NCBI GenBank assembly: GCA_964017185.1
Contig: OZ024876.1
Span: forward strand, 36,012,406 to 36,076,405
Direction: 5' to 3'
DNA: 64,000 bases
Origin: Rugalucina vietnamica
Lineage: Eukaryota; Mollusca; Bivalvia; Lucinida; Lucinidae
Shown piece by piece: positions 1,112 through 45,820 of the stretch. The notes beneath the pieces are model-generated. The model did no database searches and had not been told where the DNA came from. It saw nothing but the letters and a program-made list of their open reading frames with translations. Position 1 is the stretch's first letter, and every line of letters starts with the position of its first letter. Made by a program: the position numbers and the translations under genes.

Positions 1112-3249
1112 AAGAACCGGTGGGTCGATTTCCACGAAACTTGGTATGTAGCATCCGGGACTTCAGCCCATCATAGTTTGATCAAATGATGACCCTTGGA
1201 TGACCTTGACCTATTTTACGGCAAGGTCAAATTTGGAAACATAGGCTTTTACATGGGAAAAAAAGGAAAACTATGGATTTTTTGAAAACTATTGCAGCCT
1301 GAGGCCTGAAAAGTGGTAGATGCAAACAACTAATGGAGTAGATGAAGGTATATGATTAATATAGGTCAAGGTCATCTCTTGACCTTGGCCAGTCTGTTGT
1401 CCATACACACTTTTCAAAGATCTTCTTCTCTGAAACTGCTAAGCCAATCGAAGTGAAATTTTATGTGGAGCATCCATGGGTAGGGTAGACGAAAGTTTGA
1501 TCGAGAAATTCAGGTCACATGACCAAGATGGCCGCCATGCCCATATATGGTAAAAACCACTCAAAAATCTTCTTCTCCAGAAGCGGTAGGCCGATTTCCA
1601 CGAAACTTGGTATGTAGCATCAAGGACCTCAGCCCATCATAGTTTGATAAAATGATGACCCTTGGATGACCTTGATCTATTTTACGGCAAGGTCAAATTT
1701 GGAAAAATAGGCTTTTACATAGGAAAAAGTGAAAACTAAGGAATTTTTTGAAAACTGTTGCAGCCTGAGGCCTGAAAAAGGGTAGATGCAAACAAATAAT
1801 GGAGTAGATGAATGTATGTGATTAATATAGGTCAAGGTCATCTCTTGAGCTTGGCCAGTCTGTTGTCCATACACATTTTTCAAAGATCTTCTTCTCTGAG
1901 ACTGCGCAGCCAATCAAATGGAAATTTTATGTGGAGCATCAATGGGTAGGGGAGACGAAAGTTTGATCACGAAATCCAGGTCACATGACCAAGATGGCCG
2001 CCACGCCCATATATGGTATAAAACACTCAAAAATCTTCTTCTCCAGAACCGGCTGGCCGATTTCCACGAAACTTGGTATGTAGCATCAAGGACTTCAGGT
2101 GTGAGTATTCAAGGTCAAGGTCATTTCATTATGACTTAATACTCCAAGATCAGGCTTCAGGTGAGCGTTCTCAGGACCAATGGTCCTCTGGTTTGAAAAG
2201 TATTGCAGCCTGAGGCCTGAAAAGTGGTAGATGCAAACAACTAATGGAGTAGATGAAGGTATGTGGTTAATTTAGGTCAAGGTCATCTCTTGACCTTGGC
2301 CAGTCTGTCGTCCATACACCATACACACTTTTCAAAGATCTTCTTCTCTGAAACTGCTTGGCCAATCAAAGTGAAATCTTATGTGGAGCATCCGTGGGTA
2401 GGGGAGACGAAATTTTGATCGCGAAATCCAGACCACATGACCAAGATGGCTGCCACGCCCATATAAGCTATTGCAGCCTGAGGCCTGAAAGTGGTAGATG
2501 CAAACAACTAATGGAGTAGATGAAGGTATGTGATTAATTTAGGTCAAGGTCATCTCTTGACCTTGGCCAGTCTGTCGTCCATACACACTTTTCAAAGATC
2601 TTCTTCTCTGAAACTGCTTGGCCAATCAAAGTGAAATTTTATGTGGAGCATCCATGGGTAGGGGGAACGAAAGTTTGTTTGCGAAATTCGGGTCACATGA
2701 CCAAGATGGCCGCCATGCCCAACTATGGTAAAAACACTCAAAAATCGTCTTTTCCCGGGACCGGCTGGCCAATTTTCGTGAAACTTGGTGTGTCGCATTT
2801 GGGACTCCAGCCCATCATAAGTTGTTGAAATGATGACCCTTGGATGACCTTGACCTATTTTACGGCAAGGTCAATTTTGGAAACATAGGCTTTTACATGG
2901 AAAAAGGCGAAAACAATGGATATTTTGGAAACTCTTGCAGCCTGAGACCTGAAAGTTGCTAGATGCAGACAACTAATGGAGTCTATGAAGGTAAGTAATT
3001 AATGAAGGCCAAGGTCCTTTCTTGACCTTGACCCAAGGTCATTTAAATATCAAAATTAAAATTAAAGTTTTCTCAGAAATCACTGGGTTTGGAAACTATT
3101 GCAGCCTGAGACCTGAAACTTTGCAGATGCAGACAACTTATTAAGTCGATAAAGGTGTGTGAGTATTCAAGGTCAAGGTCATTTAATGATGACTTAATAC
3201 TCCAAGATCAGGCTTCAGGTGAGCGTTCTCAGGACCAATGGTCCTCTGG
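1112..3249 (+). mobile_element. A/B-family element, two tandem partial copies
   Basis: This is non-coding repeat sequence of the family found at 4543, 7283, 8936, 15657, 18001, 31900 and 35490. The body repeats about every 500 bp: a TTCTTCTCTGAAAC box, GTCACATGACCAAGATGG, CCAGAACCGG, then AAGGTCAAGGTCA and its complement. A typical B terminus (CAGGTGAGCG, then AGGACCAATGGTCCT, then CTGG) occurs inside at about 2160-2200 and again at the end (3210-3249), so two truncated copies lie head to tail. No A terminus is seen on the left. Small ORFs across it are chance. Confidence 0.75.
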
Positions 3250-4542: not shown

Positions 4543-5606
4543 CAAGTAGCCCAAGGGCAACGATCGCTCACCTGAGAGTCAACATGTACAGTCACTGGAC
4601 AAAGTGTTGTTTTTTCCATATATGGGTATGACGGTCATCTTGGTCAAGTTTCAGGCCTATGGCTGCAATGGTTTCCATAGGATCATTGGTCCTGTAAATG
4701 CTTACCCGAGACCTAGTTGTCACCTTTTCCCATGTTTCCATGTTTGCCTATGTTTCCAAAATCGACCTTTACCTACATTAATCACATACCTTCATCTACT
4801 CTATCAGTTGTTTGCATCTATCACTTTTCAGTTCTCAGGCTGCAATAGTTTTCAATAAATAACATTTTAAAAGCTCCTGGGCTCCTGGGGTCCATTTTTT
4901 TTTTTCAGAATTATTAAATTTCAGTCCTACTGCCCATTTCCTGCAATACTTTCACTTAAAATGACATTTTAAAAGTTTTTCCTATTCAAATGCATTGACG
5001 ACCTATGTTGACCTTGCCATAAAATAGGTCAAGGTCACCACAGGGTCATGTTTTATATATACATTGTAGTACTTGAGTCATCCATACTTCATGCAAAGTT
5101 TCGTTGAAATCGGTTGACCAGTTCTGGAGAAGAAGATATTTTAATGGTTTTTACCATATATGGGCATGGCGGCCATCTTGGTCATGTGACCTGGATTATT
5201 TATATACACATCGGTTCCCACTTCCTATAGATGCTGCATTTAAATTTTGGCTTTGATTGGCCAAGTGGTTTCAGAGAAAAAAATCTTTGAAAAGTGTGTA
5301 TGGACGACAGACCGGCCAAGGTCAAGAGATGACCTTGACCTAAATTAATCATATACCTTCATCTAATCCATTAGTTGTTTGCATCTACCACTTTTCAGAT
5401 CTCAGGCTGCAATAGTTTTCAAAAAATAGCTAATTTCCACTTTTCCCATTATAATTCTATGGAAACTTAAAGTTACCATAGCAACCAGAGTTCTTATCCG
5501 ACTGGAATAAAAAACCCAAATTATGTAGAGGCTACTGTCAGGAACATGTATACAAAGTACAGGATTCATCCACTTAACAGTTTTTGAGAAGAAGATTTTT
5601 GATTTT

Positions 5607-5651
<45 letters not shown>

Positions 5652-6372
5652 CAAAATTTTGCCCTTTATGGGGCCCCAGCAACCAATCGAAATAAAGGAT
5701 TAGGACAAAACTCGCAAGAAACGTCAAACACCACTCAATAAATATTTCTGCAAAAACAAAATTCAAGTGTCTGCAATTTTAGCGAAAAAAATAGCCGATT
5801 TCCACTTTTCCCTTTTATAAGTCTATGGAAACTTTAAGTTGCCATAGCAACCAGAGTTCTTATCCGCCTGGAATAAAAAACACAAATTATGTAGAGGCCA
5901 CTGTCAGGAACATGTATACAAAGTATAGGCTACATCCCCTTGACAGTTTCTGAGAAGAAGATTTTTGAATGTTTTTCGAAATTTTGCCCTGTATGGGGCC
6001 CCTGCAAACAATCAAAATAAAGGATTAGGACACAAAAGTCACATGAAACGTAGAGGACTACTCAATAAACATTTCTGCAAAAACAAAATTCAAATATCTC
6101 AAACAAGACAGCAAAAATAGGCAATTTTCACTTTTCTCCATTATAAGTCTATGGGAAGCATAAGTTGCCATAGCAACCAGAGTTCTTATCCAATCGAAAT
6201 AAAAAACACAAATATTCGTTTCCCCCACCTGTAGATGCTATATGTGAAATATGAAAAGATTCGGCCTGGCAGCTTCAGAGAAGAAGTCGTTTGAAAATGT
6301 TGACGCACGGACGCCGGCTCGACTACTATAAGTTTATCAGCTCACCTAGTGAGCCTTCGGCTCAGGTGAGCT
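4543..6372 (-). mobile_element. A/B-family element inside element E
   Basis: Read on the minus strand it begins with the A terminus (hairpin AGCTCACCTGAGCC...GGCTCAC..GGTGAGC at 6336-6372) and ends in a diverged B terminus near 4543 with a GCCCTTGGGC palindrome. The right-hand third holds three copies of a variant module with GTTGCCATAGCAACCAGAG, TTATCCG and TGCCCTWTATGGGGCCC. A 42 bp poly-T run interrupts one module. Comparison with the other E copy near 6830 shows insertion in a T run with no obvious target duplication beyond T or TT. Confidence 0.7.
5610..5651. repeat. poly(T) run
   Basis: About 42 consecutive T residues follow two GATTTTT repeats. The run probably grew by slippage from the TTTTTGATTTTTGA sequence normally present at this point of the module (compare 5958-5985). 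The exact length is uncertain in any assembly. Confidence 0.9.
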
Positions 6373-6483: not shown

Positions 6484-6589
6484 TTCTTATTTTTGCTCAA
6501 AACATAGATTGTGGGTACTCGTTAGAACCGCCTCGACGAGGCGGTTCTAATGTGTACCCACAATCTATGTTTTGGAGCAAAAATAAGAA
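6484..6589. repeat. C-element palindrome, copy 1
   Basis: A near-perfect 106 bp inverted repeat: TTCTTATTTTTGCTC, AAAACATAGATTGTGGGTAC, GTTAGAACCGCCTCG, then the same in reverse. The centre is CCTCGACGAGG. The stem would be about 52 bp with almost no loop. Four further copies occur at 7178, 17324, 54350 and 55814. Confidence 0.85.
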
Positions 6590-6770
6590 ACATAGCTAAC
6601 CCCTGTAAACCTCAATTTTACAATGTAAAAGTGGGGTATGAGGGGGTATACATTTCACAGGCATGTTTTCCTGATAAATATAAGTAAATTATTCCTGAAA
6701 ATACAACTAGTTTACTTCTAAGTGTCCCAAAGACAGAACAACAGAAAACTAACTACGGTTTGGACCCATG

Positions 6771-6892
6771 TATCGGGATCCAGGATTTCTGGAAGTGGGT
6801 TCAAATTCATAGGGGTTCGTTTTCAACATGTTACCTGATTTTTTCATTAATGAAATATTTTGGCCAAGAGGGGGGTTCAAGCGAAAAAGCTA
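6771..6892 (-). repeat. E-element fragment
   Basis: About 120 bp matching the ends of the 4458-6453 element in the opposite orientation: GGATCCAGGATTTCTGGAAG, GGGGTTCGTTTTCAACATG, ACCTGATTTTTTCATTAATG and GAGGGGGGTTCAAGCG. It crosses the point where the other copy carries an A/B element, so it serves as an empty site. Confidence 0.6.
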
Positions 6893-7061: not shown

Positions 7062-8680
7062 AATGGGATGAAACATCATTACGAAAACTTGCCCGTGTAG
7101 TTGTAATTACTGAATAATTCATTAGAAAAAATCGATATTTTCAATATTAATTCATTTGAAAAATTTCGATTTTTTTTTTCAATATTTTTGCTCAAAACAT
7201 TGATTGTGGGTACACGTTAGAACAGCATTGTTGAGGGGGTTCTAACGATTACCCGCAATCTGTGTTTAGGATCAAAATAAGACAAGAGGACCAATGGTCC
7301 TGTAAACGCTCACCTGAGAACTGGGATATATAAAATAGGTCAAGGTCATCCCAAGGTCATGATTTATATAAACTTTGTAGAGCTCCTTTCCCTGATGCTT
7401 CATGCCAAGTTTCAAAATCATAGGCCTTCTGGTTCTGGAGAAGATTTTAAAGGTTTTTTGCTATTTATAGCCATGGCGGCTATCTTGGTCATGTGACCTT
7501 GACCATTTATATAAACTTTCATTCTCCCTTCCTAAGAATACTCAACAAGACGTTTGGCTTTGATTGGCCAAACGGTTTCAGAGAAAAAGATCTTTGAATA
7601 TCATGGTAATATATACATGTATATTGCCCCCTGGATGGGGGCAGACCTGCCCCTGGGGTCCTTTTTTCAGAATCATAAATATTCAGTCCATTTACCCATT
7701 TCCATAAAAATTTTCCTGTCAAATGACATTTAGACAATTTTCCCCATTCAAATGCATGAGCAACCTATGTTGACCTTGCCGTAAAATTGGCCAAGGTCAT
7801 CCCAGAGTCATGATTTATATAAATCTTTGTAGAGCTCCTCCCCCTGATGCTTCATGCCAGGTTTCAAAATCATAGGCCTTTTGGTTCTGGGGAAGAAATT
7901 TTTAAAGGTTTTTGCTATTTATAGCCATGGCGGCCATCTTGGTCATGTGACCTTGACTATTTATATCAGCTTTCATTCCCTCATCCTAAGGATACTACAT
8001 ATAAAATTTGGCTTTGATTGGTTGAGCGGTTACTGAGAAAATTAAGTTTAACATTTAATTTGTAAATGATCTTTGGCCAAGGTCAAGAAATGACCTTGAC
8101 CTTTAATACTCACATCACTTCATTAGCTCAACATGTTGTCTGTATCTACCAACTTTCAGGTCACAGGCTACAAAACTTCCTGAAAAAGTCAATGTTTTCA
8201 CTTTTTTTCCATTGAAAAGCCTATGTAACCAAAATTGACCTTGCCGTAAAATAGGTCAAGGTCAACCCAAGGTCATGATTTATATAAACTATGATGGGCC
8301 AAAGTCCTCAATGCTACATACCAAGTTTCGCTGAAATTGGTCCACCGGTTCTAGAGAAGAAGAATTTTTTATGGTTTTTACCATGTATGGGCATGGTGGC
8401 CATCTTGGTCATGTGACCTGGATCATTTATATAAACTTTTGTTCCCCCTTCCTAAGGATGCTCCACATGAAGTTTGGCTTTGATTGGCCTAGTGGTTTCA
8501 GAGAAGAAGATCTTTGAAATTGTGGACGGACGACGGAGCATGGCCATCCTATAAGCTCACCTTGTGAGCCTTCGGCTCAGGTGAGCTAAAAAAATAGGTA
8601 TACCTAGCTGGTAAATCCCACGTTTATTATACAAACGTGAGGTATTATGGGGTGTTCATTTCACGGATATATAATAGAGT
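7062..8680 (+). repeat. C-family element (copy 2), interrupted by an A/B element
   Basis: The left part (7062-7282) starts CATTACGAAAACTTGCCC and contains a degraded copy of the palindrome (7178-7282). The right part (about 8588-8680) resumes at AATAGGTATACC and continues to the GTTTTCCCC end. The break lies exactly in the AAGAAAAATAGG tract that is intact at 55914-55926. The intervening 1.3 kb is an A/B element. Confidence 0.65.
7283..8587 (-). mobile_element. A/B-family element, both termini present
   Basis: On the plus strand it opens with the B terminus (AGAGGACCAATGGTCCTGT, AACGCTCACCTGAG) and closes with the A terminus hairpin at 8549-8587 (GCTCACC.TGTGAGCCTTCGGCTCAGGTGAGC). Between are three body modules, each with TGACCTTG boxes, GCCATCTTGGTCATGTGACC and TTGATTGGCC. 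About 1.3 kb, no coding capacity. It interrupts a C element at the same site as the copy at 15657-17323. Confidence 0.8.
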
Positions 8681-8943
8681 TTTCCCCTAGATCTTCTTGT
8701 TGTTTTGATTTCTTCTAATTGCACAATTTTTGCAGACACTGAAGTTGAATTCAGACATAAGTCTTTCTGCTGTTTTCATTTATTCTTTTAATGCATGTTA
8801 GAAAACTTTAGTTTTAAACACTGATATCTGGATGTAGCTGTACATGTCCTGTCCATTTAATGCATATTTCTAGCAAGGGCCGAAGCCCTTGCATTTTCTA
8901 AAATTATCTTTACTGTCACATTTTTAGCTCACCCAGGGACAGT

Positions 8944-9424
8944 AGATTTACAAATATGTGTTTATAGTGGTCAGTTTCTACGAACTACTTCTATATTGCA
9001 TTTTTGTTCAAGCAAAACATAGCACATATTGGGCTGTTGTTTGATGTCAAGTTTGAATAGATACACCAAAAATTACACCTGAGCCATCTGTATAAAAATG
9101 AACAAAAACTGTTTTCTTCCAGAAGAAGTTTTTTTGCCTCTTTTGTAACAGCCTTTTTATATAAAAGTATTCACTCAATCTATTTGAATTTTATATAAAA
9201 CAACACTGGAACAGTTCATCATTAGAATGGTATATTTCTTTGTAAGTTATGTTCAGTATGTTCAGTTCAGTATTTTGTAAAACACAGGCAGTGTTTGGCA
9301 TATTTTGCATTATTAAATTGCATAGTAAATTATTGAAATACCTGTCAAGCCCAGTCCAAGTGGCAAGACAAGCATACTCTATAAAATAGGGCTAGAGTCC
9401 AATCACTTGTATTATAGATCACTG
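8944..9424. mobile_element. hAT-like non-autonomous element, short copy
   Basis: 481 bp with termini CAGGGACAGTAGATTTACA and ...GATCACTG, flanked by a 7 bp direct repeat GCTCACC (8937-8943 and 9425-9431). A longer, inverted copy of the same family is at 19300-19911. No transposase is encoded. The CAGGG/CAGTG ends resemble hAT elements, but hAT duplications are normally 8 bp. Confidence 0.75.
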
Positions 9425-10662
9425 GCTCACCTCAGGTGAGCTTATAGTATACCCATGCTCCGGCGTCCGTCGTCCGTCCGTCCACAATTTCAAAGATCTC
9501 CTCTGAAACCGCTAGGCCAATCAAAGCCAAACTTCATATGAAGCATCCTTAGGAAGGGGGAACGAAAGTTTGTATAAATGGTCCAGGCCACATGACCAAG
9601 ATGGCCGCCATGGCTATAAATAGCAAAAACCTTTAAAAATCTTCTTCTCCAGAAAAAGAAGGCCTATGATTTTGAAACTTGGCATGAAGCATCAGGCAAT
9701 GGAGCTCTACAAATTTTGTATAAATCATGACCCTGGGATGACCTTGACCTTTTTTACGGCAAGGTCAACTTAGGTCACCCATGCATTTGAATGGGAAAAA
9801 TAGGAAAATTTCATTTAATGGCAGAAAAGTTGCTAGGAATGAGCAAATGGACAGAAAATTTATGTTTATGAAAATCTTTTGGGCCCAGGGGGTTGTCTGC
9901 CCCTGCCCTGGGGCTATATACATTTATATGACTATAATATTCAAACATCTTCTTCTCTGAAACCGCAGCAGGCAATGGAGCTCTACAAAGTATGTATAAA
10001 TCATGACCTTGGGATGACCTTGACCTATTTTACGGCAAGGTCAACTTAGGTCGTTAATGTATTCGAATGGGAAAAAATAGTAAAATGTAATTAAATGGGG
10101 GAAACTTGCTGGGAGTATGCAAATGGACAGAAAATTTATGTTTATAGAAAACAATTTGACCCCAGGAGGTTGTCTGCCCCTGCCCTGGGGCTATATACAT
10201 GTACATGTATGTGACCATAATATTCAAACATCTACTTCTCCGAAACCGCTATGCCAATCAAAGCCAAACTTTATGTGCAGCATTGTTAGGAAGAGGGAAT
10301 GAAATTTTGTATAAAATGTCAAGGTCACATGACCAAGATGGCTGCCATGGCTATAAATAGCAAAAACCTTTAAAAATCTTCTTTTTTTTATCATTTATTT
10401 ATCACATTCTATACAAAGATTTACACAACAACATGTTAATACAAATCACTTATGTACAGATATAAATATTTAGGTTAGATGAATAATGTTAACATTCAAC
10501 GTTTTATGTCTAATCATTTTGTATATAAATCTTTCTACATAATGTTTTTATCAGAAGAAAAATCTGAAAATATTGGTAGAAAAAATGACAATAAATAAAT
10601 GAATAAATAAATAATTACATAAATAAATAAATAAATATCTTGCTGCTGTCTACTTTTAAACT

Positions 10663-10968
10663 TTAGGTTTCATGTCTTGTCAGTGTATCAAGTATATTTC
10701 TCCATTTGGTTTCAAAAGAGGCAAGTTTGTCATTCAGAAAAGCTATCTCTTTTTCTACTTTGATTCGCGTTTTAAGGAAAGATTTAAAGTGTTGTATATT
10801 TGGAATTTGTTTTCTTTGTTTTGCTTGAAAAATGAAGAATTTTCCTAAATAAATTATGAAGTTTTGAACTAAGACTTTGTAAGTGGGATTTGATTGAATA
10901 ATTCCGAAACTCATTGTTTTTTGGTCTAAATTTAAGTCAATATTACAATGATTAAGAAAGTCTGTCAT
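10663..10968 (-). pseudogene. LINE ORF2 C-terminal tail, out of frame with the main ORF
   Basis: 101 codons that continue copy 2's protein after its zinc knuckle: MTDFLNHCN, TMSFGIIQSNPTYKVLV, KTRIKVEKEIAFLNDK, ending RHET. The region is basic and helical, and its function is unknown. Joined without the 16 bp deletion, ORF2 would be about 1255 residues. The termination codon TAA is at 10663-10665. Confidence 0.8.
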
Positions 10969-13900
10969 TGAAGTCCAGAATTGTTGGACGTATGTGCACT
11001 CCCAGAAAAGATGTGAAAATGTTTCAATTTCCAGAGAGAAGAATTGACAATTTTACATTTTGTGAGAAACTGGTTGGTCGGTATAATTCGCATTAAGTAC
11101 TTATATTGGAAATTGCGCAGTTTTATTTCGTTTGTTGTTTTAAATGTTGTAGAATATATATTTTTCCAGTGTAAATGTTCATTTGAAAACTGTTCATTCC
11201 ATTTCGTCTCAGATTTTATTTCAAATGTTTGATTTTGGTTCAGAAAACAGTTGTAAATGAATTTATTTGTTTGTGAAGTGTTTTTAAGTTGATCTAATAT
11301 TTTGGTTTCGACTGGGATATTTGAGTTTTCATGGTAAAGTTTTCGTCTCCAATCTTTTGGGATACTGTTTAATAAGCTCAGGTACCTTAAATAATCACTA
11401 TTCGGTACTCCAAATTTATGTTGGATCTTTCTAAATGAACAATATACTTTTGTTTCATCATCATATATATCTTTTATGTATTTTATACCTGGTTCTGACC
11501 AACGTTTATAGAATACTGTGTTGTCATCTATACGTATTTTAGAATTATTCCAAAGAATTTCATTTAAATGATTATAAATTATTGGTTTTATATTTAGTTT
11601 TGACCATGCCATAAGTATATCTTTAAGAAACGGTTTGTTTTTAAAATGTTTCAACACATCAAATTCATTAAAATTACATTCAAATAAAATATTACCTCCA
11701 AATTCTCTGAAATCATTTTCATATAAGGTTTTTAAAAGACTTTTGTTTTCAGATTGTAAAAAGCGTTTAATCCAACTTGCTTTTAGTGACCATATGAATT
11801 TTTCAGTATCGATCATCCTTAATCCGCCCTGGTTGTAATCTTTAATTAGTGTGCTGCGTTTAATTTTGTCCGGTTTATTATCCCATAAAAAGGCATACAT
11901 TAATTGTTCTATTTCTTTAATAGTTTCCTTTGGGGGATTTTGTAATGACGTAAGTGGGTAAATTATTTTAGGGAGTGCAAAGTTTTTAATCACAACAATT
12001 TTTCCCATAAGTGTAAGTTTTCTGTGACTCCATTGTTGTAAACAATTTTTAAATTCTTTAATTTTTGGTTCCAAATTTGAAGATAACACATTTTCTTTAT
12101 TTGTTTTAAAAATCATTCCGAGACAGCTTGCTTCTTCTGTATTCCAAGAGAATTTCCTATGTTTCGTAAATTCTATATTTGTTTGTTTGGTAGTGCCGAT
12201 GCGAAGAATTTGGCATTTTTTTGCGTTTAATTTTAATCCGGAGATGTTTGAAAAGTTGTCCATAACATAAACTAAAGAATCAAAAGATCGTCTTGATCCA
12301 TCCATTATGAAAGCGGCATCATCTGCAAAAAGTGAAGTTTTAAATTCTTTACCATTAATTTTAATTCCTTTAATATCTTGATTCTTTAAAATTTGATTTG
12401 ACAGAAGTTCAATGCAAATTATAAACAAGTAAGGAGATAACGGGCAGCCCTGTCTTACACCTCTTCTAATGTGAAAAAACTCTGAGTAATGACCATTGTT
12501 AGAAACACAGCTTTTTGCATCTTTATAGAATAAATGTATCCAGTTAAGTAAATCGTTGTTAAAATTGAAATGCCTTAAACATTTAAACAAAAAATCATGG
12601 TTTACACTGTCAAAAGCTTTTTCAAAGTCTGAAAAAAATAATATACCTGGCAAGTTATGTTCATCAACGTAGTCTAGTGTTTCGAAAATAAGACGAATAT
12701 TTTCCCCTATATAGCGACCTTTCATAAAACCCGTTTGTGTTTCGTGTATAAGTTTTGGAAGTACATTTTTAATTCTGTTAGCGATTACTTTTGTTGCTAT
12801 TTTATAATCTACGTTGAGAAGGCTAATAGGCCTCCAATTTTCTAAAAATGAAATATCTTTTCCCGGCTTTGGTAAAAGTGTAATGACGCTTTGCTTCTGG
12901 AGTTCAGTTAGTTCTAGGTTTTGAAAAGAGAAGTTAATTGAATTAAGATAATATTCCTTTATTTCGTTCCAAAATATTTTATAAAATTCTGTTGTTATGC
13001 CATCCGAACCTGGACTCTTTTGATTTTTCATTTCTTTTATTGCTTTTACACATTCATGGTTGGTTATTAGCCCCTCACAGCTGTTACTTTCAATTTCGTT
13101 TAGTTTAGGTAGTGAATCGTCAAAGAAGTCGATATTAGAGTTTACTTGTTCTTTTTGTGAATAAACGTTTTTGTAGAATTTCTTTTCTTCTTCAAGGATA
13201 GATTTCTGATTTGTGATTAGATTTCCGTTTACATTTAATCTTGATATTATTTTGGATTCCGCCTTTTTCTTTTCGAGACTTGCAAAATATTTACTGTTTC
13301 TTTCATTTTGTTCGATAATTTGTGCCTTAGATCGTATTATGAGCCCGTTTAGTTTGCTTTCTGTGATTTTATCTAATTCTTTCTTTTTGTTATCTAGTTC
13401 TTGTTTAAGTCTTTCACTGTGTTGTTGTTCATGTGGGTGCGTTAATTCATTTTCTAATCTTTCTATTTCTTTAATATGAGCCTCTTCAATCTGTAGATTA
13501 TTTTTTTTCTTAGCGGATGCATATTTTATTGTTTCATTTCTTATAGTACCTTTTATAATTTCCCATAATGTATTTGGATTTGCGTCCTTGTTTATTCTTG
13601 CTATATTATTAATGTTTTCCTTAATTTTTTGTTGATATTCGGTATCTAATATTAAACTGTTATTTAGTTTAAAGTAACCAGGACCTCTTTCACATGTGTT
13701 TGTATCGATCGATAAAGTTACTATGCTATGATCGGACTTGTAACTTGTTTTATGCTCACATGAAATAACACTATTTGAAATATTTTTAGAAATTAAAAAG
13801 TAATCTAGTCGACAGAGAATGGGCGGCTTGTGTGACGAGTGCCATGTATACTGCCTTAAATCAGGATGTTTATCTCTCCATATATCTGTTAAATCGTGTA

Positions 13901-14414
13901 TTTCAATTATATCAATAATTTTTTGTCGACATAATTTATGTGTATCAGTTTGTCCATTTTTCTTATCCATACCTGGATCCAAAACCGTATTAAAATCTCC
14001 CCCTATTATGTAATTTTTATCTTCATTTGCTTGTATATACGTATTCATTATTTCAAAAATATTCAATTCATCTTTATTTGGACCATATATATTTATTACT
14101 GTAACTTGCTTTTCTTGTATTTTAAGTTCAAGTGCCTGTAGTCTGCCACAAATAAGTTCTGCATAATTGAGTATTTCGCATTGAAGATTTGGGTTTATTA
14201 ATATTCCTACACCTTCACTGTTTGAGGATTTACCACTGAGAAAGCATTGTTTGCCCCATATTTGTTTCCATCTGTCACATGTATTGTTTTCCGAGTGAGT
14301 TTCTTGTAATAAACAGATGTCGAACTTTTTGTTTTTTAACCATGTAAAAATGTGTTCTCTTTTATTGGCATTGCCTAGACCCCTAACATTATATGAGCAA
14401 ATTGAGATACCCAT
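10965..14414 (-). CDS. LINE ORF2: endonuclease + reverse transcriptase
   Basis: 1149 codons uninterrupted. The N-terminal apurinic-type endonuclease covers residues ~1-235: NVRGLG, LLQETHS at ~35, IIGGDFN at ~136, CRLDYFLIS at ~201, SDHS at ~227. The reverse transcriptase follows: NQKSPGSDGI, the FSDFEKAFDSV catalytic block at ~595, GVRQGCPLSPYLF, FADDAA at ~695. It would nick target DNA and copy its own RNA. The start MGISICSYNVRG fits the usual beginning of LINE endonucleases. A 16 bp deletion near 11031, seen against copy 2, shifts the frame, so the end reads ...FHIFSGSAHTSNNS instead of the CEFCNMEIETFSHLFWEC zinc knuckle. Confidence 0.9.
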   Translation of the reverse strand: MGISICSYNVRGLGNANKREHIFTWLKNKKFDICLLQETHSENNTCDRWKQIWGKQCFLSGKSSNSEGVGILINPNLQCEILNYAELICGRLQALELKIQEKQVTVINIYGPNKDELNIFEIMNTYIQANEDKNYIIGGDFNTVLDPGMDKKNGQTDTHKLCRQKIIDIIEIHDLTDIWRDKHPDLRQYTWHSSHKPPILCRLDYFLISKNISNSVISCEHKTSYKSDHSIVTLSIDTNTCERGPGYFKLNNSLILDTEYQQKIKENINNIARINKDANPNTLWEIIKGTIRNETIKYASAKKKNNLQIEEAHIKEIERLENELTHPHEQQHSERLKQELDNKKKELDKITESKLNGLIIRSKAQIIEQNERNSKYFASLEKKKAESKIISRLNVNGNLITNQKSILEEEKKFYKNVYSQKEQVNSNIDFFDDSLPKLNEIESNSCEGLITNHECVKAIKEMKNQKSPGSDGITTEFYKIFWNEIKEYYLNSINFSFQNLELTELQKQSVITLLPKPGKDISFLENWRPISLLNVDYKIATKVIANRIKNVLPKLIHETQTGFMKGRYIGENIRLIFETLDYVDEHNLPGILFFSDFEKAFDSVNHDFLFKCLRHFNFNNDLLNWIHLFYKDAKSCVSNNGHYSEFFHIRRGVRQGCPLSPYLFIICIELLSNQILKNQDIKGIKINGKEFKTSLFADDAAFIMDGSRRSFDSLVYVMDNFSNISGLKLNAKKCQILRIGTTKQTNIEFTKHRKFSWNTEEASCLGMIFKTNKENVLSSNLEPKIKEFKNCLQQWSHRKLTLMGKIVVIKNFALPKIIYPLTSLQNPPKETIKEIEQLMYAFLWDNKPDKIKRSTLIKDYNQGGLRMIDTEKFIWSLKASWIKRFLQSENKSLLKTLYENDFREFGGNILFECNFNEFDVLKHFKNKPFLKDILMAWSKLNIKPIIYNHLNEILWNNSKIRIDDNTVFYKRWSEPGIKYIKDIYDDETKVYCSFRKIQHKFGVPNSDYLRYLSLLNSIPKDWRRKLYHENSNIPVETKILDQLKNTSQTNKFIYNCFLNQNQTFEIKSETKWNEQFSNEHLHWKNIYSTTFKTTNEIKLRNFQYKYLMRIIPTNQFLTKCKIVNSSLWKLKHFHIFSGSAHTSNNSGLQ

Positions 14415-14946
14415 GGATCTTTACCGAAGTCCATTCAAACTGGTAAGTAGACAGCAGACAAGAAAACAAAGAAATACAGAAATACAGTAAGTAAAAAATG
14501 AAACAAAATACGTTTACATGTACCAATATTGTAGAATGCATACTGATGGGTGAATTAAGCTGTAGAGTCAATAGCTCGGATTGGTATGCATATACTATTC
14601 CATATTATATACATCAAACACAGAGGAAAGGTAAAAAACGTTAACATTTTGAATAGAGTAGCAGTACCGCCGCTCAAAGGAAATATGCCGCTCAGAGTGA
14701 CATTATTATGTTTTAACATTTATAATTAATTGACATAAGGTTCATATTCTACATTAAAAAATCTTCTTGTACAGAACCAGAAGTCTATGATTTTGAAACT
14801 TGGCATGAAGCATCAGGCAGTAGAGCTTTATAAAGGTTATATAAATCGTGACCCTGGGATGACCTTGACCCATTTTATGGCAAGGTCAACTTAAGTCACA
14901 CATCCCAGATATCAGGTGAGCGTTTATAGGACCATTGGTCCTCTGG

Positions 14947-15539: not shown

Positions 15540-15656
15540 ACAATCCCTTTTTATTTCATCAGGAAAACATGTCCGTGAAGCGTCTACCCCCTTAAACCCC
15601 ACTTTTATATAGAAAAACTGGGGTATGCAGGGGTATACCTATTTTTAGCTCACCTA

Positions 15657-17323
15657 AGCCGAAGGCTCACAAGGTGAGCTTATAGGATGGCCATGATCCG
15701 GCGTCCGTCCGTCCGTCCGTCGTCCGTCCGTCGTCCGTCGTCCACAATTTCAAAGATCTTCTTCTCTGAAACCGCTTGGCCGATCTAGTTGAAATTTTAT
15801 GTGGAGCCTCCTTGGGTAGTGGCATTTCAAGTTTGATCGCGAAATCCAGGTCACATGACCAAGATGGCCGCCACGCCCATATATGGTAAAAACCCTTCAA
15901 AAATCTTCTTCTCTAGAACCGGTGGGCCGATTTCCACGAAACTTGGCATGTAGCATCGGGGACTTCAGCCCATCATAGTTTGATAAAATGATGACCCTTG
16001 GATGACCTTGACCTATTTTACGGCAAGGTCAAATTTGGAAACATAGGCTTTTACATAGGAAAAAGTGAAAACTATGGATTTTTAGAAAACTATTGCAGCC
16101 TGAGGCCTGAAAAGTGGTAGATGCAAACAACTAATTGAGTAGATGAAGGTATGTGATTAATATAGGTCAAGGTCATCTCTTGACCTTGGCCAGTCTGTTG
16201 TCCATACACACTTTTCAAAGATCTTCTTCTCTGAAACTGCTTGGCCAATCAAAATGAAATTTTATGTGGAGCATCCATGGGTAGGGGAGACGAAAGTTTG
16301 ATCGCGAAATCCAGGTCACATGACCAAGATGGCCGCCACACCCATATATGGTAAAAACCACTCAAAAATCTTCTTCTTCAGAACCGGTGGGTCGATTTCC
16401 ACGAAACTTGGTATGTAGCATCGAGGACCTCAGCCCATCATAGTTTGATAAAATGATGACCCTATGATGACCTTGACCTATTTTACGGCAAGGTCAAATT
16501 GGAAACATAGGCTTTTACATAAGAAGAAGTGAAAACTATGGATTTTTTTTAAAACTATTGCAGCCCGAGGCCTGAAAAGTGGTAGATGCAAACAACTAAT
16601 GGAGTGGATGAAGGTATGTGATTAATATAGGTCAAGGTCATCTCTTGACCTTGGCCAGTCTGCTGTCCATACACACTTTTCAAAGATCTTCTTCTCTGAA
16701 ACCACTTGGCCAATCAAAGCGAAATTTTATGTGGAGCATCCATGGGTAGGGGAGACGAAAGTTTATTAGTGAAATCCAGGTCACATGACCAAGATGGCCG
16801 CCACGCCCATATATGGTAAAAAACACTCAAAAATCTTCTTCTCCAGAACCGACAGGCCAATTTTCATGAAACTTGGTATGTAGCATTTGGGACTCCAGCC
16901 CATCATAGTTTGTTGAAATGAAGACCCTATAATGACCTTGACCTATTTTACGGCAAGGTCAATTTTGGAAACATAGGCTTTTAAATGGGAAAAGGCAAAA
17001 ACAAACTGTTGCAGCCGGAGACCTGAAAGTTGCTAGATGCAGACAACTAATGGAGTCATTGAAGGTAAGTAATTACTGAAGGCCAAGGTCATGTCTTGAC
17101 CTTGGCCCAAGGTCATTTAAATATCAAAATTAAAATTATGGTTTTCTCAGAAATCACTGGGTTTGGAAACTATTGCAGCCTGAGACCTGAAACTTTGCAG
17201 ATGCAGACAACTTATGAAGTCAATAAAGGTGCGTGAGTATTCAAGGTCAAGGTCATTTCATTATGACTTAATACTCCAAGATCAGGCTTCAGGTGAGCGT
17301 TCTCTGGACCAATGGTCCTCTGG
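15657..17323 (+). mobile_element. A/B-family element, complete ends, best reference copy
   Basis: 1667 bp. It starts AGCTCACCTAAGCCGAAGGC (A terminus) after TTTTT, then a GTCC-rich microsatellite (about 15704-15748). Three ~500 bp body modules follow, each with TTCAAAGATCTTCTTCTCTG, GTCACATGACCAAGATGG, CCAGAACCGG, a TGACCTTGACCTATTTTACG box and TAGGTCAAGGTCAT. It ends CAGGTGAGCGTTCTCTGG, ACCAATGGTCCTCTGG (B terminus), followed by TT. The 11-mer GCTCACCTGAG at A recurs inverted at B. No protein coding. Confidence 0.85.
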
Positions 17324-17729: not shown

Positions 17730-17891
17730 AGCTCAAGTGAGCTTATTATACTTTATAGGATAGGCAGGCATCCGTCCACAATTTCAAAGATAGATATTTC
17801 TGAAGCTAGTGGGCCGATCTTGATCAAATTTAATGTGGATCTTCATCAGGTTGGGGGATTGACTGCATTAGGTTTACGAGCAGATTGTCTC
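17730..17891 (+). mobile_element. A/B-family fragment with A terminus (diverged subfamily)
   Basis: After ATTTTT it reads AGCTCAAGTGAGCTTATTAT, then CAGGCATCCGTCCACAATTT, ATATTTCTGAAGCTAGTGGG and CCGATCTTGATCAAATTTAA. The same subfamily is complete at 35490-36374. It is cut by the Penelope-like 3' end that follows. Confidence 0.65.
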
Positions 17892-18000: not shown

Positions 18001-20038
18001 CCAGAGGATCATTGGTCCTGAGAACGCTCACCTGAAGCCTGATCCTGGAGTATTAAGTCATCATAAAAAGACCTTGACCTTGAATACTCACACACCTTTA
18101 TTTACTTCACAAATTATCTGCATCTGCAAAGTTTCAGGTCTCAGGCTGCAATAGTTTCCAAACCCAGTGATTTCTGAGAAAACCATAATTTTAATTTTGA
18201 TATTTAAATGACCTTGGGTCAAGGTCAACAAATGACCTTGGCCTTCATTAATTACTTACCTTCATTGACTCCATTAGTTGTCTGCATCTAGCAACTTTCA
18301 GGTCTCAGGCTGCAACAGTTTCCAAAATATCCATTGTTTTCGCCTTTTCCCATGTAAAAGCCTATGTTTCCAAAATTGACCTTGCCATAAAATAGGTCAA
18401 GGTCATCCTAGGGTCATCATTTCAACAAACTATGATGGGCTGGAGTCCCAAATGCTACATACCACGTTTCGCGTAAATCGGTCAGCCGGTTCTGGAGAAG
18501 AAAATTTTTGAGTGGTTTTTACCATAGTTGGGCATGGCGGCCATCTTGGTCATGTGACTCGAATTTCGCGATCACACTTTCGTTCACCCTACCCATGGAC
18601 GCGTCACATAAATTTTCACTTTGATTGGCCAAGCAGTTTCAGAGAAGAAGATCTTTGAAAAGTGTGTATGGACGACAGACTGGCCAAGGTCAAGAGATGA
18701 CCTTGACCTAAATTAATCACATACCTTCATCTACTCCATTAGTTGTTTGCAGGTCTCAGGCTGCAACAGTTTTCAAAAAAATCCATAGTTTTCACTTTTC
18801 CCATGTAAAAGCCTATGTTTCCAAAATTGAAATTGCAATAAAATAGGTCAAGGTCATCCTAGGGTCATCATTTGATCAAACTATGATGGGCTGGAGTCCC
18901 AAATGCTACATACCAAGTTTCATCGGTTCTGGAGAAGAAGATTTTTGAGTGGTTTTTACCATATATGGGCGTGGCGGCCATCTTGGTCATTTGACTTGGA
19001 TTTCGCGATTAAACTTTCGTCTCCCTTACCCATGGATGCTCCACATAAAATTTCACTTTGATTGGCCAAGCAGTTTCAGAGAAGAAGATCTTCGAAAAGT
19101 ATGTATGGACGACAGACAGGCCAAGGTCAAGAGATGACCTTGACCTAAATTAATCACATACCTTCATCTACTCCATTGGTTGTTTGCATCTACCACTTTT
19201 CAGGCCTCAGGCCGCAATAGTTTTCAAAAAATCCATAGTTTTCACTTTTTCCCATGTAAAAGCCTATGTTTCCAAAATTGACATTGCCGTAAAATAGGTC
19301 AGTGATCTATTATACAAGTGATTGGACTCTAGCCCTATTTTATAGAATATGCTTGTCTTGCCACTTGGACTGGGCTGGACAGGTATTGCAATAATTGACT
19401 ATGCAATTAAATAAGGCAAATTATTCCAAACACTGCCTGTGTTTTACAAAATACTCCTACAAGCATACTGAACAGAACTTAAAAAGAAATAAACCATTCT
19501 AAAGATGAACTGTCCCAGTGTTGTTTGATATAAAATTCAAATATAATGAGTGAATACTTTTATATAAAAAGACTGTTACAAAAGAGGCAAAAAAAACTTC
19601 TTCTGGAAGAAAACAATTTTATACAGATGGCTTAGGTGTAATTTTTGGTGTATATATTCAAACTTGACATCAAACAACAGCTCAATATGTGCTTAAACAG
19701 ATGACATGTTTTGCTTGAATAAAAATGCAATATAGAAGAAGGAGTAGTTCTTAGAAACTGACCACTATAAGCTCATATTTTCTTACTTATTTTCCATGTA
19801 AATACCTATTGGGCATATTCTAAAACCTGGCCTGACTCCAAGTCACGCATATATTGGAAAATGATAATAACAGTACTGTAGTTTCAAGTCCCTGTAAATC
19901 TACTGTCCCTGAATAGGTCAAGGTCATCCTATGGTCATCATTTGATCAAACTATGATGGGCTGGAGTCCCAAATGCTACATACCAAGTTTCATGAAAATC
20001 GGCCAGCCGGTTCTGGAGAAGAAGATTTTTGAGTGGTT
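18001..20038 (-). mobile_element. A/B-family element, A end lost, carrying a hAT-like insertion
   Basis: The B terminus CCAGAGGATCATTGGTCCTG starts at 18001. Body modules follow with ATTGGCCAAGCAGTTTCAG, GCCATCTTGGTCATGTGAC and GATGACCTTGACCT boxes. A hAT-like element interrupts it at AATAGGT (19300-19911). Homology stops near 20038 (GAGTGGTTTA) with no A terminus, so the element is truncated. Confidence 0.75.
19300..19911. mobile_element. hAT-like non-autonomous element, long copy
   Basis: 612 bp with ends CAGTGATCTATTATACAAG and ...TAAATCTACTGTCCCTG, flanked by AATAGGT on both sides (19293-19299 and 19912-19918). It is the inverted homologue of 8944-9424 but has ~130 bp extra before the CCCTG end (about 19770-19890). 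Non-coding. Confidence 0.75.
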
Positions 20039-20304
20039 TATTTCTTCCCGAATTATGCATAATTAAATTCATTAGTTTGGCGGATGAAGCAAATACACAC
20101 TACGTGGATTAAAAATAAGAATAATAAATAAAATAAAATAAAATTTTGATAACTTTCTGGTTTATATATGCACTAAAATAAACATTGACGAAGCACACAT
20201 TGCGTTTTGTTACCCATTTTTTTCAAGTAGTATCGGTCGAAATTGATCGACGTAATTCCGCATTTTTACGTCGGGACGTTACTCTTTGGTGATCGAAAGT
20301 TGCC

Positions 20305-22827: not shown

Positions 22828-23754
22828 CGAACTTAGCTTTTTGCAAAACGCATTTTGTATAATTATCAGTCTGTACAAGGGAAAGTATCCGTATTTCTAC
22901 TAATGTTAAGCCGTGGTAGATTTACCTGATCTTTGATCCCCAAAAATACACAAAAAAGGAATCTATGTTTTAGCGGCTGAAACAAAATACCAAGTCCTGT
23001 AAACATTGAAAAACAAAACGGGATTCCAATTTCCCAGGGCTCGCGAAACATCTAGAATGTGCTTGTTTCATGTACCTATGATCGATATCTACATGCAAAT
23101 AGCCCACGAAATTCGACAAACCATAATAGATAATCTAGGTTTTACTCTAACACGGTCATCTAATTATAGATTATAGTTGACGATTAAGCTACGGAATCTA
23201 GGCCAGATAAGTCATAATTATGTACATTGTATAAGTACTCGAAGAGTTCTAAAGCAACGTTGAAAAATCGAAAGGACTGTCTGCGAGGGTTTTTACACAC
23301 GCAGCGAAAAAAATGAAAAACAGTAAAAATGGTGCAGTTACATAAACAAAAAAATTATATCTGTCATATTTATAAAAATAATTTAGATGAAATTTTGCAA
23401 CAAACTTTTTGTATCGTAGTTTTATAGAAGTTTTTTTTATTGATTTCTTTCGAAGCCGACCACCCTTTCGATAAAGTCTTAATGAAAAAATAGTTCCTCA
23501 ATTTTTATCATCAAATTTAATTAAAGTCAGTCATTTTAAGACAAAAAGCATGTTAAGATGCAGTTTAAGCTATAGTTCATGTTTTGACAAAACGATTTCG
23601 CATGTATTGAACCAGAAATGGAAGTAGCTGCTCAAATCAAAGCCGCTTATAGCAAAGAAGAATCAATTAATTGTGCCCCATAACCCTTGCTCAAACCAAC
23701 CACAAATAGCACTGGCTTGGGAGCCAGCGCAATAACAGTCGAAACAAATTTATT
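22828..23754. other. No recognisable feature
   Basis: About 930 bp of AT-rich sequence after the TTAA-flanked element. I see no domain, tandem repeat or element terminus. Confidence 0.5.
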
Positions 23755-23759
23755 GGTAT

Positions 23760-23806
23760 TTATCCCAGATCTCAGGTGATCGTTTACAGGACCATTGGTC
23801 CTCTGG
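23760..23806 (+). repeat. Solo B terminus of the A/B family
   Basis: ATCCCAGATCTCAGGTGATC, GTTTACAGGACCATTGG and TCCTCTGG followed by T. Only the terminal ~47 bp remain. Confidence 0.7.
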
Positions 23807-24479: not shown

Positions 24480-24658
24480 GTAAATTGAAGGGAAAAACTT
24501 CCAGGGATATTTATGATTCTGAAAAAAATGACCACAGAGGTTCATCTGCCCCAGTCACGGGACTGCATACATGTATATGACCATAATAGTCAAACGAGTC
24601 CCAGATCTCAGATGAGCATTTACAGGACTACCGGTCCTCTGGACCACCGGTCCTCTGG
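24480..24658 (+). repeat. A/B-family 3' fragment with duplicated terminus
   Basis: Body sequence GATTCTGAAAAAAATGACC, GTATATGACCATAATAG, then CCCAGATCTCAGATGAGC, GGACTACCGGTCCTCTGG and a second CCACCGGTCCTCTGG. The last 15 bp are duplicated. LINE copy 2 abuts it directly. Confidence 0.65.
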
Positions 24659-31899: not shown

Positions 31900-34370
31900 C
31901 CAGAGGACCAACGGTCCTGTAAACACTCACCTGAGATCTGCTATATTAACCAAATATTTATTTAAAAAAATTTGCCCTTTATGGGGCCCCCACCGACCAA
32001 TCAAAATAAAGGATTAGGACAAAAGTCAACCAAACTGTAGATGACTACTCTATAAACATTTCTGCAAAATTAGAATTCAAATATCTGCGATTGGACCAGA
32101 AAAAAATAGCCAATTTCCACTTTTCCCATTTTAAGTCTATCGAAACTTTAAGTTGCCATAGCAACCAGATTTCTTATCCGACTGAAATAAAAAAAAAAAC
32201 ACAAATTATGTAGAGACTACTGTCAGGAACATGTATACAAAGTACAGGCTTCATGCCATAGACAATTTCTGAGGAGAAGATTTTTAAATGTTTTTCGAAA
32301 TTTTAGCTTTATGTGGCCCTAGCAACTAATCAAAATAAAGGATTAGGAAAAAAAAGTCACATGAAACATAGATGCCGTGTGCGATTTGTAGCTTCTGGAA
32401 GTAGAAGTAAGTTAATTCAGATCGATTTACGTCTTCTGAAACCAGAAGAGGCCTCTTCCGTCAAATCAAACAGGGGTCTTCTGGTTCTACAAGCTCTTCT
32501 GCCTCTTCCGAATTTTGAGTGGAAGACGCAAGACGGAAGAGGTCACGTGACCGCGTTCTTGTCAACAACAATGGCTGCCTCTGCAGCTGGACCGACTTTC
32601 AACGACTTTCACTAGCTCTTGCAAAATGTATGCTTCATATACATTTTACTAAAAGGATTTAGTGAAAGAAAAAGACATGTTTTCATCCTTAATTTCTTTC
32701 ATAGCTTGTTTACAGAATCGATTGTTTTGATTTAAGAATTACAAGGATAGCTTTTAAAAAAGCTAGTGTCGCCCGTTTTCTCTGTTATTTAGATCTAGAC
32801 CACCATCATTTAGTCCTGGATTGCGTAAGAATGGTTATTCAGCTTAACTAACATGTAGATCAACTGTCTAACCTACATCGCGTTTCACTTTTATAACTCG
32901 TTCATTCCATTTGTGTCGAGGGGTGTAAAGGGACATCAACGGAAATGTTCTATTGAACATCCAGCCTGATCAAAATACAGAAACCGAAATTTTGTGCTCA
33001 GGAGACGAAACGCCTTGTAAAACGAATGCGTACACTCATAATTGCTAAATCAAGTCCACCCACAGCAAAGCAAACTCCCCAACAGTGCCAACACCTCCGG
33101 TTTGGAGTTTGACAGCAAAGAATATCGAACCAGTTTTAAGACCAAAGATATGATTGGTCGAAATAGATCTAGCCAATCACTTTCTGCCTTTCAATAATCA
33201 GTTCCTGTCGGTAAAACGTTGCTGGTTTCCCGCTTAGTCAAATTACATGTAAAATATTTCGAGAACCATACACATTTTCGTATTTGGATTCTATCGGTTT
33301 TCTTCCCTGTTTCCTTGGGAAAATCCTACCGTATATGTCACCCGTTGTGACGGGCGACAATCATGGAGGCCGCCATTGCGATTTCCTCCTTTTTGAAGAG
33401 CTACTCTATCGTTTACTGTTCGATTTGTTTTTTGTCTTCTGTCTTCTTTGGTATCTTCCGTCACGTGATATTCTGCTTCCAGAAGTGTCTAAATTGCACC
33501 CGGCAAGAGATATACTCAATAAATATTTCTGCAAAGACAAAATTCAAATACCTACAATTGGTCCAGAAAAAAATAGCTAATTTCCACTTTTCCCATCATA
33601 AGTCTATGGAAACCATAGCAACCAGAGTTCTTTACGACTGGAATAAAAAACACAAATTATGTAGATGCTACTGTCAGGAACATGTATACAAAGTACAGGA
33701 TTCATCCACTTGATAGTTTCTGAGGAGAAATTCAAATGTCTGCAATCTTAGCGGAAAAATAGCCGATTTCCACTTTTCCCATTATAAGTCTATGGAAACT
33801 TTAAGTTGCCATAGCAACCAGAGTTCTTATCCGCCTGGAATACAAAAACACAAATCATGTAGAGGCCACTGTCAGGAACATGTATACAAAGTACAGGCTT
33901 AATCCCCTTGACAGTTTCTGAGAAGAAGATTTTTGAATGTTTTTCGAAATTTTGCCCTATATGGGGCCCCTGCAACCAATCAAAATAAAGGATTAGGACA
34001 AAATTCACATGAATCGTAGAGGACTACTCAATAAACATTTCTGCAAAAACAAAATTCAAATATCTCCAACAAGACAGCAAAAACTGGCAATTTTCACTTT
34101 TTTTCCATTAGAAGTCTATGGGAAGCATAAGGTACCATAGTAACCAGAGTCCTTATCCGATCAAAACAAAAAAAAAACACAATTATTTTCCCCCTACCTG
34201 TAGATGGTGTATGTGTAATATGAGAACAATCGGCCCAGCGGTTTCAGAGAAGAAGATCTTTGAAATTGTGGACGACGACGGACGGACGACGGACCGTGAC
34301 GGACGCCGGACGGATGCCGGAGCATGGGTATACTATAAGCTCACCTATGAGCCTTCGGCTCAGGTGAGAT
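31900..34370 (-). mobile_element. A/B-family element (variant body) with nested TIR element
   Basis: B terminus CCAGAGGACCAACGGTCCTG at 31900, A terminus hairpin at 34338-34370 (GAGCCTTCGGCTCAGGTGAG). The body consists of the variant module also seen at 5460-6340: GTTGCCATAGCAACCAGA, TTATCCG, TGCCCTTTATGGGGCCCC. A GACGGACGAC-type microsatellite precedes the A end. A 1.13 kb TIR element interrupts it at 32374-33504. Confidence 0.8.
32374..33504. mobile_element. TIR element nested in an A/B element
   Basis: Imperfect ~35 bp inverted ends: GCCGTGTGCGATTTGTAG, CTTCTGGAAGTAGAA on the left; the complement of GCCGGGTGCAATTTAGACAC, TTCTGGAAGCAGAAT on the right. CACGTGAC occurs subterminally on both sides. 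The interior has a short in-frame start (ATGGCTGCCTCTGCAGCTGG) that soon stops. No transposase. The flanking duplication is not clear. Confidence 0.6.
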
Positions 34371-45595: not shown

Positions 45596-45820
45596 AAGGC
45601 TCACAGGGTGCGCTTATAGGATGGTCATGCTCCGGCGTCCGTCTGTCCGTTGTCCGTCCGTCGTAGTCCACAATTTCAAAGATCTCCTTCTCTAAAGCTA
45701 AACTTCATGTTGAACATTCTTAGAAAGGGGGAACGAAAGTTTATATAAATGGTCTAGGTCACATGATCTATGGCTATAGAAAGCAAAAAAAAAAAAAAAA
45801 AAAAAAGAAAGAAACCTTTA
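45596..45820 (+). repeat. A/B-family 5' fragment
   Basis: GGCTCACAGGGTGCGCTTATAG is a diverged A terminus, followed by CATGCTCCGGCGTCCGTC, a GTCCGTCC stretch, CACAATTTCAAAGATCTCC and ATGGTCTAGGTCACATGAT. An A run at ~45786-45806 follows and similarity ends. Confidence 0.65.

Follow-up and report, generated by a model that had tools for sequence, protein, structure and literature searches.

HINE repeats in the bivalve Rugalucina vietnamica and their probable autonomous Helentron partners

The A and B repeats found in a 64,000-nucleotide stretch of Rugalucina vietnamica DNA (the window) are almost certainly HINEs, i.e. internally deleted, non-autonomous Helentrons, which are probably mobilized in trans by autonomous Helentrons with the same ends. 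A sequence-only reading of the window had proposed a Helentron/HINE-type rolling-circle element, and this is supported by same-ended relatives elsewhere in the genome whose predicted proteins include Rep and a PIF1 helicase, as well as an AP-type endonuclease that scores only marginally. The candidate mobilizing Helentrons share with the repeats their ends, a GTCC microsatellite and 5' tandem repeats, and have one open reading frame of about 2,500-2,600 aa. Its predicted product combines a tegument-like deubiquitinase domain, DUF6570, an HUH Rep, PIF1 and an AP-type endonuclease at the C-terminal end.

Anatomy and copies of the repeats in the window

The given element, which belongs to the A group, is 1677 bp long (Table 1). 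Its 3' boundary at 17323 is borne out, but the start proposed at 15657 is wrong, as the element opens 10 bp earlier, at 15647. The 5' junction reads TTTTT|AGCTCACC or, in a longer read, TTTTT|AGCTCACCTAAGCC, and this opening forms a 34-nt terminal hairpin. On the 3' side the palindrome GGACCAATGGTCC is followed by the terminus TCTGG|TT. The ends are unlike, as had been noted (AGCTCACC at the 5' side, CTCTGG at the 3' side), and the GTCC microsatellite described near the 5' end was located there.

The subterminal 11-mer has 19 matches in the window at one mismatch or fewer, against 0.41 expected, a number reached in none of 100 shuffles. It had been described as inverted at both ends; it is indeed such a repeat but not an exact one, since the ends of the given copy agree at only 9 of 11 positions. 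HINEs are characterized as non-coding units whose subterminal inverted repeats measure 11 bp or more. In the six two-ended copies the match between the 5' and 3' repeats is 11/11 in two (8587 and 6372; copies are named here by their end coordinates), 10/11 in one (34370) and 9/11 in three (the given copy, 8926 and 35490). Random 11-mers from the window reach 10/11 or better within a 60-bp 3' end in 51 of 20,000 cases. The 3' repeat is found 21-25 bp inside the element end. The copies are non-coding, and the longest stop-to-stop frame in the five window copies checked is 128 aa.

Both termini can fold. The proposed 5' hairpin, treated as single-stranded DNA, folds better than shuffled sequences in all four copies submitted (z -3.9 to -6.4). 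With RNA parameters and seven copies, four show z values of -4.5 to -6.5, followed by 35490 (-2.4), 17730 (-0.6) and 8926 (+1.7); the hairpin of the 8926 copy is broken by an insert. The palindrome near the 3' end, another HINE feature, is present as claimed but is weaker than the 5' hairpin, with single-stranded DNA z values of -2.5 in two of three copies and -0.5 in the third. With RNA parameters z is -2.3 to -3.8 in 8 of 10 copies, and the copies ending at 4543 (-0.4) and 18001 (0.0) are no better than shuffles.

How many copies are there? The earlier count of at least eight is upheld by BLAST, motif scans and reading, which together give six two-ended copies (15647, 8587, 6372, 8926, 34370 and 35490), one with only the 5' end (17730), five with only the 3' end (2191, 3249, 18001, 23806 and 24658) and a 5' fragment (45596). 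At least 12 of these share the anatomy described. Over the last 60 bp, ten 3' ends were compared: those of the A group (2191, 3249, 17323 and 18001) are 95-100% identical, the B group (14946, 23806, 24642, 31900 and 7283) is looser at 70-84%, and the 4543 end is 53-61% identical to the others. At one B-group 3' end (24625-24658) the terminal 16 bp, palindrome included, are doubled in tandem (GGACTACCGGTCCTCT, GGACCACCGGTCCTCT), which might reflect slippage at termination.

Other sequences share the window with the HINEs. Two inserts within HINE copies (8934-9424 and about 19301-19911), which we take to be hAT-like, have similar ends (CAGGGACAG...GATCACTG) and are flanked by repeats of 7 bp (GCTCACC and AATAGGT). 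Frames for a LINE-type reverse transcriptase, an endonuclease or both are present at 10965-14420 (-), which sits within the HINE copy 8926-14946, at 38822-41281 (-) and at 63132-63587 (+). A SECIS_1 match (RF00031; 3542-3609, +; 39 bits, gathering score 35) overlaps the end of a short frame that is presumably a retrotransposon-like C terminus. An open frame at 48078-48911 (+) carries a domain of the nerve growth factor family (E 1.4e-13) and is probably a host neurotrophin-like gene.

Table 1. Coordinates of the given element and its parts, other HINE copies, paralogous empty sites, neighbouring repeats and autonomous Helentrons
Feature	Coordinates	Strand	Remarks
HINE copy, complete, A group (given element)	15647..17323	+	collinear with Helentron C4p at both ends
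5' terminal hairpin	15647..15680	+	contains 5' subterminal repeat and complementary inverted repeat; ssDNA fold -9.5 kcal/mol, z -3.9
GTCC-type microsatellite	15702..15743	+	sequence repeat analysis of given element
Tandem repeats, 465-bp unit, 2.7 copies	15748..16983	+	weak internal period of about 147 bp in the unit (self-comparison)
3' subterminal repeat	17288..17298	+	inverted relative to 5' repeat; 9/11 match in given copy
3' palindrome GGACC-AAT-GGTCC	17306..17318	+	then TCTGG at 17319-17323; sequence read and fold
HINE copy, complete, B group	7283..8587	-	target repeat the same as for 15647-17323
HINE copy, complete	4543..6372	-	3' end differs (GCCCTTGGGCTACTTG); end comparison
HINE copy, B group	8926..14946	+	presumed hAT-like insert (8934-9424) and LINE insert (about 10383-14750)
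HINE copy, B group	31900..34370	-	bases 3-643 94% identical to Helentron C8p
HINE copy	35490..36378	+	3' terminus decayed, end uncertain
HINE 5' end	17730..17891	+	broken by another repeat
HINE, A group, 5' truncated	18001..20039	-	3' end present; presumed hAT-like insert (about 19301-19911)
HINE, A group, 5' truncated	1113..2191	+	3' end 2191; adjoins next copy at T run
HINE, A group, 5' truncated	2192..3249	+	3' end 3249
HINE 3' end, B group	23740..23806	+	coordinates of 3'-end portion only
HINE 3' end, B group	24560..24658	+	terminal 16 bp doubled in tandem; coordinates of 3'-end portion only
HINE 5'-end fragment, degraded	45596..45696	+	
Paralogous empty site, 15647-17323 / 7283-8587 insertions	54375..54532	-	86% and 74% across the two junctions
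Paralogous empty site, 15647-17323 / 7283-8587 insertions	55840..55997	-	89% and 76% across the two junctions
Paralogous empty site, 15647-17323 / 7283-8587 insertions	6510..6666	-	84% and 75% across the two junctions
Paralogous empty site, 4543-6372 insertion	6776..6885	+	75% across the junction
Near-perfect palindrome, about 100 bp	6502-6570, 7197-7265, 17343-17411, 54366-54436, 55832-55900		ACATAGATTGTGGGTAC arms
CTACTTGTAC-ending repeat	17892-17994, 34371-34520, 4043-4193, 20669-20812, 40418-40519, 54952-55100, 56700-56846		
Autonomous Helentron C5p	G000:C5:54459549-54472619		
Autonomous Helentron C7p	G000:C7:11862314-11876241		
Autonomous Helentron C4p	G000:C4:1593848-1608243		
Autonomous Helentron C8p	G000:C8:61254183-61267254		

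Target sites

Insertion in T runs, with T on both sides, had been read from the window and is confirmed there: of seven 5' ends counted, six come directly after TTTTT, and nine of ten 3' ends have T next to them on the outside. The degraded 5' terminus at 45596 and the decayed 3' one near 36378 are left out of these numbers. The 35490 copy is the exception at the 5' side (TTTCTA), and as the 8926 copy was located partly by its T-run context, the independent count for TTTTT is 5 of 6.

The absence of a clear target duplication also holds. Strings common to the two flanks of a copy average 5.0 bases in six copies, compared with 5.03 for mismatched flank pairs (the 8926 copy being entered as 8934, and the end of the 35490 copy as 36372). 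Empty sites were sought by joining the flanks of copies, and the sites found in the window are paralogous: three are common to the 15647-17323 and 7283-8587 insertions and one corresponds to 4543-6372 (Table 1). The T run counts 7, 8 and 7 at the three filled sites and 5, 5 and 6 at their best empty counterparts, i.e. one to three extra Ts and no longer duplication. The same search for the 8926, 34370 and 35490 copies found no empty site. Seven autonomous elements (described below) were treated in the same way. For C2b this identified five empty repeats; the one most similar to the joined flanks (87% identity across 106 bp) also has seven Ts in a row, and the remaining four have 3-5. C7p gave a single weak hit (74% identity across 81 bp), and the other five elements gave none in the sequence stretches searched. 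A target duplication of several base pairs, which would have spoken against a Helentron, is thus absent, as the three window copies and C2b show only a few Ts. A TT or T-rich target without duplication is what is expected of HINEs.

Two repeats at these sites deserve mention. A near-perfect palindrome of about 100 bp, present in five copies, sits within a longer repeat; the 15647-17323 and 7283-8587 HINEs are both inserted in this one repeat, beside the palindrome, where the base of its arm is rich in T. Another repeat is seen seven times, each copy closing with CTACTTGTAC(C), or something very similar, and then some 3-6 Ts; the 34370 HINE begins directly at the T run of one of them.

Autonomous Helentrons with the same ends

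The sequence-only reading had suggested a search for an autonomous Rep/helicase and endonuclease element with the same termini. Of the window's 21 frames that reach 130 aa, 20 were searched with Pfam, and none has a match to Rep or helicase; matches in 7 of these 20 were to reverse transcriptase, endonuclease and zf-RVT, with one to the nerve growth factor family. The same genome (1.09 Gb, 47 contigs) yielded 409 first-look candidates for Helitron_like_N (PF14214). Of 150 that were scored, all are above the curated cut-off, and at least 45 have frames of at least 2,500 aa. Eighteen of the 150 loci were sampled, 12 from a main class and six from other Rep lineages. For ten of these (four main class, six other lineages) 20 kb around the Rep locus were fetched; the remaining eight were looked at for ends alone and were assigned to the main class by the pattern of Pfam matches, their proteins being left unread. 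Of the 12 main-class Rep loci in this sample, 11 are bracketed by the same ends as the repeats, and on this sample the suggested search is positive.

The four fully read Helentrons (C5p, C7p, C4p and C8p) are 13-14.4 kb long, with one open frame each (2621, 2621, 2627 and 2526 aa). Upstream is the 5' end AGCTCACCTGAGCCGAAGGCTCA, preceded by at least five Ts, and downstream the 3' end CAGGTGAGCG......GGACC...GGTCCTCTGG|T. Both ends are also present in seven of the eight end-only picks (C4b, C10b, C2b, C3b, C9c, C1c and C9d). Of the 11 bracketed loci, 10 have five or more Ts before the 5' end (C3b has ATTATT instead), and all 11 have T immediately after the 3' end. The 5' end of C3b is 9.3 kb before the Rep match, compared with the usual distance of about 6-7 kb, and from that end the element is 98.8% identical to C5p for 1,938 bp. 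C15b was excluded from the bracketed count because its 5' end, of a foreign type and about 10.5 kb upstream, is followed by sequence unlike C5p, and the stretches fetched contain no 3' end. C4p has its 5' end within a T run that belongs to another A-type element, the remainder of which is absent after the 3' end; as the two flanks do not rejoin, the pairing of the C4p ends is only inferred.

Could the ends around Rep frames be chance neighbours, HINEs being so common, with the Helentrons using other ends? HINE 3' ends are indeed found downstream of the frame at two of the six loci of other Rep lineages (C2m and C12p). Yet none of these six has a 5' end on its upstream side together with a 3' end on its downstream side, as opposed to 11 of 12 in the main class. 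This is a weak control, since only 1.9-6.7 kb upstream were covered and the main class spans 2.6-3.2 kb from 5' end to frame, so that in two to three of the six the 5' end could lie outside. More direct is the comparison of C5p and C7p, located on different contigs. Their identity is 99.3% across one aligned block of 10.5 kb and 98.7% across another of 2.6 kb, C7p having about 0.8 kb extra between the two, and the proteins are 99.9% identical; the identity begins 7 bp before the 5' end and ceases 8 bp past the 3' end, and the sites are unrelated. Chance association is therefore highly improbable.

The Helentrons with these ends encode a multidomain protein. In the three main-class proteins scanned with Pfam, each in two halves (frames of 2621, 2627 and 2526 aa), all have Herpes_teg_N, DUF6570, Helitron_like_N, REP_ORF2-G2P and PIF1, the PIF1-family helicase at E values of 1.0e-18 to 2.9e-18. 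A DSH motif is present in the tegument-like domain. The frames also have matches to the endonuclease/exonuclease/phosphatase family at the C terminus, where Exo_endo_phos (PF03372) is marginal (24.5, 25.6 and 24.3 bits versus a cut-off of 24.5). An AP-type endonuclease appears to be fused there, marginal by profile score, with the GDFN and SDH motifs in all four proteins (C5p, C7p, C4p and C8p). A phmmer comparison of the endonuclease with solved structures gave only an antibody chain at E 0.69, which is not credible. Rep motif 2 is VEFQQRGSPHIH and motif 3 is YIVGYISK. Two signatures of Helentron Reps are described for the motif 2 region, S in place of L and a preceding F/Y-x-R (PMC4067079); the form ExQxRG-S-PHxH with F/Y-x-R before it is seen in the same four proteins as YFYRVEFQQRGSPHIH. 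A related L-type protein of the same genome, C10p, has EDQKRGLPHAH and serves as an internal contrast. Further lineages of Helentron type (S in motif 2) are found on contigs C6, C12, C14, C2 and C13, with frames of 2545-3542 aa and about 30-33% identity to the main class in the four of five that were compared.

How close are the HINEs to these Helentrons? Compared with C4p, the given copy is 80% identical over its first 1515 bp and 85% over its last 158 bp, with 12.7 kb, including the frame, absent between them; by this alignment it is a deletion derivative of a C4p-like Helentron. Copy 34370 is 94% identical to C8p over about 640 bp. The tandem repeats of the HINEs recur in the Helentrons, in the region that separates the 5' end from the frame. 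The published line for a subfamily is 80% identity or more across the last 60 bp (PMC4067079). The A group reaches 83-87% with C4p, above this line. The B-group 3' ends, at most 78% identical to any of 11 Helentron 3' ends, fall below it, and the 4543 end is at most 62% identical to any of them. Since no 3' match of at least 80% was found for it among these 11, the B group was placed by its subterminal repeats and 5' region. The comparisons thus support a putative partnership at the subfamily level for the A group and at the family level for the B group.

Mobilization and comparison with known systems

The repeats invite another reading, that of cut-and-paste MITEs of a DDE transposon, whose transposase would bind the inverted 11-mers and duplicate the target. 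They have short inverted repeats at both ends, many copies and no long open frame in the five copies checked, and elements of this kind have been so classed before, as DINE-1 once was; Pearl was considered a MITE until it was re-categorized (PMC7492417). However, the 3' repeat is internal to the end, the two ends are unlike, empty sites lack a duplication beyond a few Ts, and the autonomous elements with the same ends encode Rep, helicase and endonuclease. Neither a target duplication of fixed length nor a DDE partner was found, and Pfam detects no DDE transposase in the three Helentron frames scanned, where such a relative would have counted against the original reading. A MITE origin is highly improbable. 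Canonical Helitrons, which begin with TC, end in CTRR and insert between A and T, would likewise account for a Rep/helicase element with a 3' hairpin and no target duplication, but can scarcely be reconciled with the ends AGCTCACC and CTCTGG, which have neither 5' TC nor 3' CTRR, with T-run sites, with an S-type motif 2 in place of L, as in Helentrons, or with C-terminal endonuclease motifs.

How would the HINEs, as derivatives of Helentrons, be moved? From what is described for the Helentron family (PMC4067079), Rep would make nicks at the two junctions, T|A and G|T, one strand would be peeled off replicatively by the helicase and the 3' hairpin would halt copying. The endonuclease may perhaps open the T-rich target, and the single strand would be joined into it without duplication.

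It is likely that the genome has a HINE/Helentron pair that is active now or was so very recently, and that the satellite-like repeats of the HINEs were not picked up by each HINE on its own but have their source in an identifiable autonomous element, which also spreads them. The near-identity of C5p and C7p suggests recent activity of the autonomous class. As many open-framed Helentrons, including at least two that are near-identical, have the same arrays in their own 5' regions, the HINE repeats would derive from the autonomous element.

An exact 22-mer of the 5' end has no match in viral contigs, and a literature search for the end motif gave no transposon paper, by title or start of abstract, among the matches listed. 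In the open-access literature, with most subscription papers outside the search, no link between HINE and partner was found for a mollusc. Helentron proteins have already been reported from molluscs (PMC4067079), and the kind of element is itself known; what is added is the link, made by sequence comparison, of mollusc-type HINEs to intact Helentrons. HINEs that carry satellites are abundant in the oyster genome, and no source of their enzymes could be linked there (PMC7492417). With open-framed copies at hand, two of which differ by about 1%, it becomes testable whether the Helentrons still move, and whether satellite-like arrays spread as cargo of an autonomous element.

A close parallel is Cg_HINE of Crassostrea gigas (PMC7492417). 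As here, it has a 5' subTIR of 11-12 bp with a complementary inverted repeat, a 3' subTIR with a palindrome, satDNA-like tandem repeats, T-rich or TT insertion without TSD, a GTCC-type microsatellite in several elements and the same order of parts. The repeat unit is mostly 140-180 bp in Cg_HINE as opposed to 465 bp here. The oyster study lists ten autonomous elements from Repbase and could tie none of them to the Cg_HINEs, whereas a partner is linked here. The Pearl elements CvA, CvE and CvG of bivalves, originally described by Gaffney et al. (2003) and later grouped with non-autonomous Helentrons (PMC7492417, PMC11136912, PMC5139131), have a modular structure with satDNA-like core repeats similar to those found here, a likeness drawn from description only.

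HINE/DINE-1 elements and Helentrons (Thomas et al., 2014; PMC4067079) share with the present family the subTIRs, the 3' palindrome, insertion in T runs with a variable number of Ts and the status of deletion derivatives of Rep/helicase/endonuclease elements. Identity between HINEs and sampled partners is about 80-94% here, compared with 84-99.9% in a mite, >95% in Culex and 98% in Drosophila, and no window HINE is as close to a sampled Helentron as the Culex or Drosophila pairs. The mite Helentron has an RPA frame, and the four 20-kb main-class loci have no second sense-strand frame of more than 300 aa, such as RPA. The predicted protein architecture has a precedent in the VTD-containing Helentrons, in which VTD or tegument-like deubiquitinase domains occur, with molluscs among the hosts (PMC9741609). 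In these, as in the Helentrons described here, a Herpes_teg_N/VTD-like domain with D-x-H, predicted as a VTD in the present case, comes before Rep, and an AP endonuclease is at the C-terminal end.
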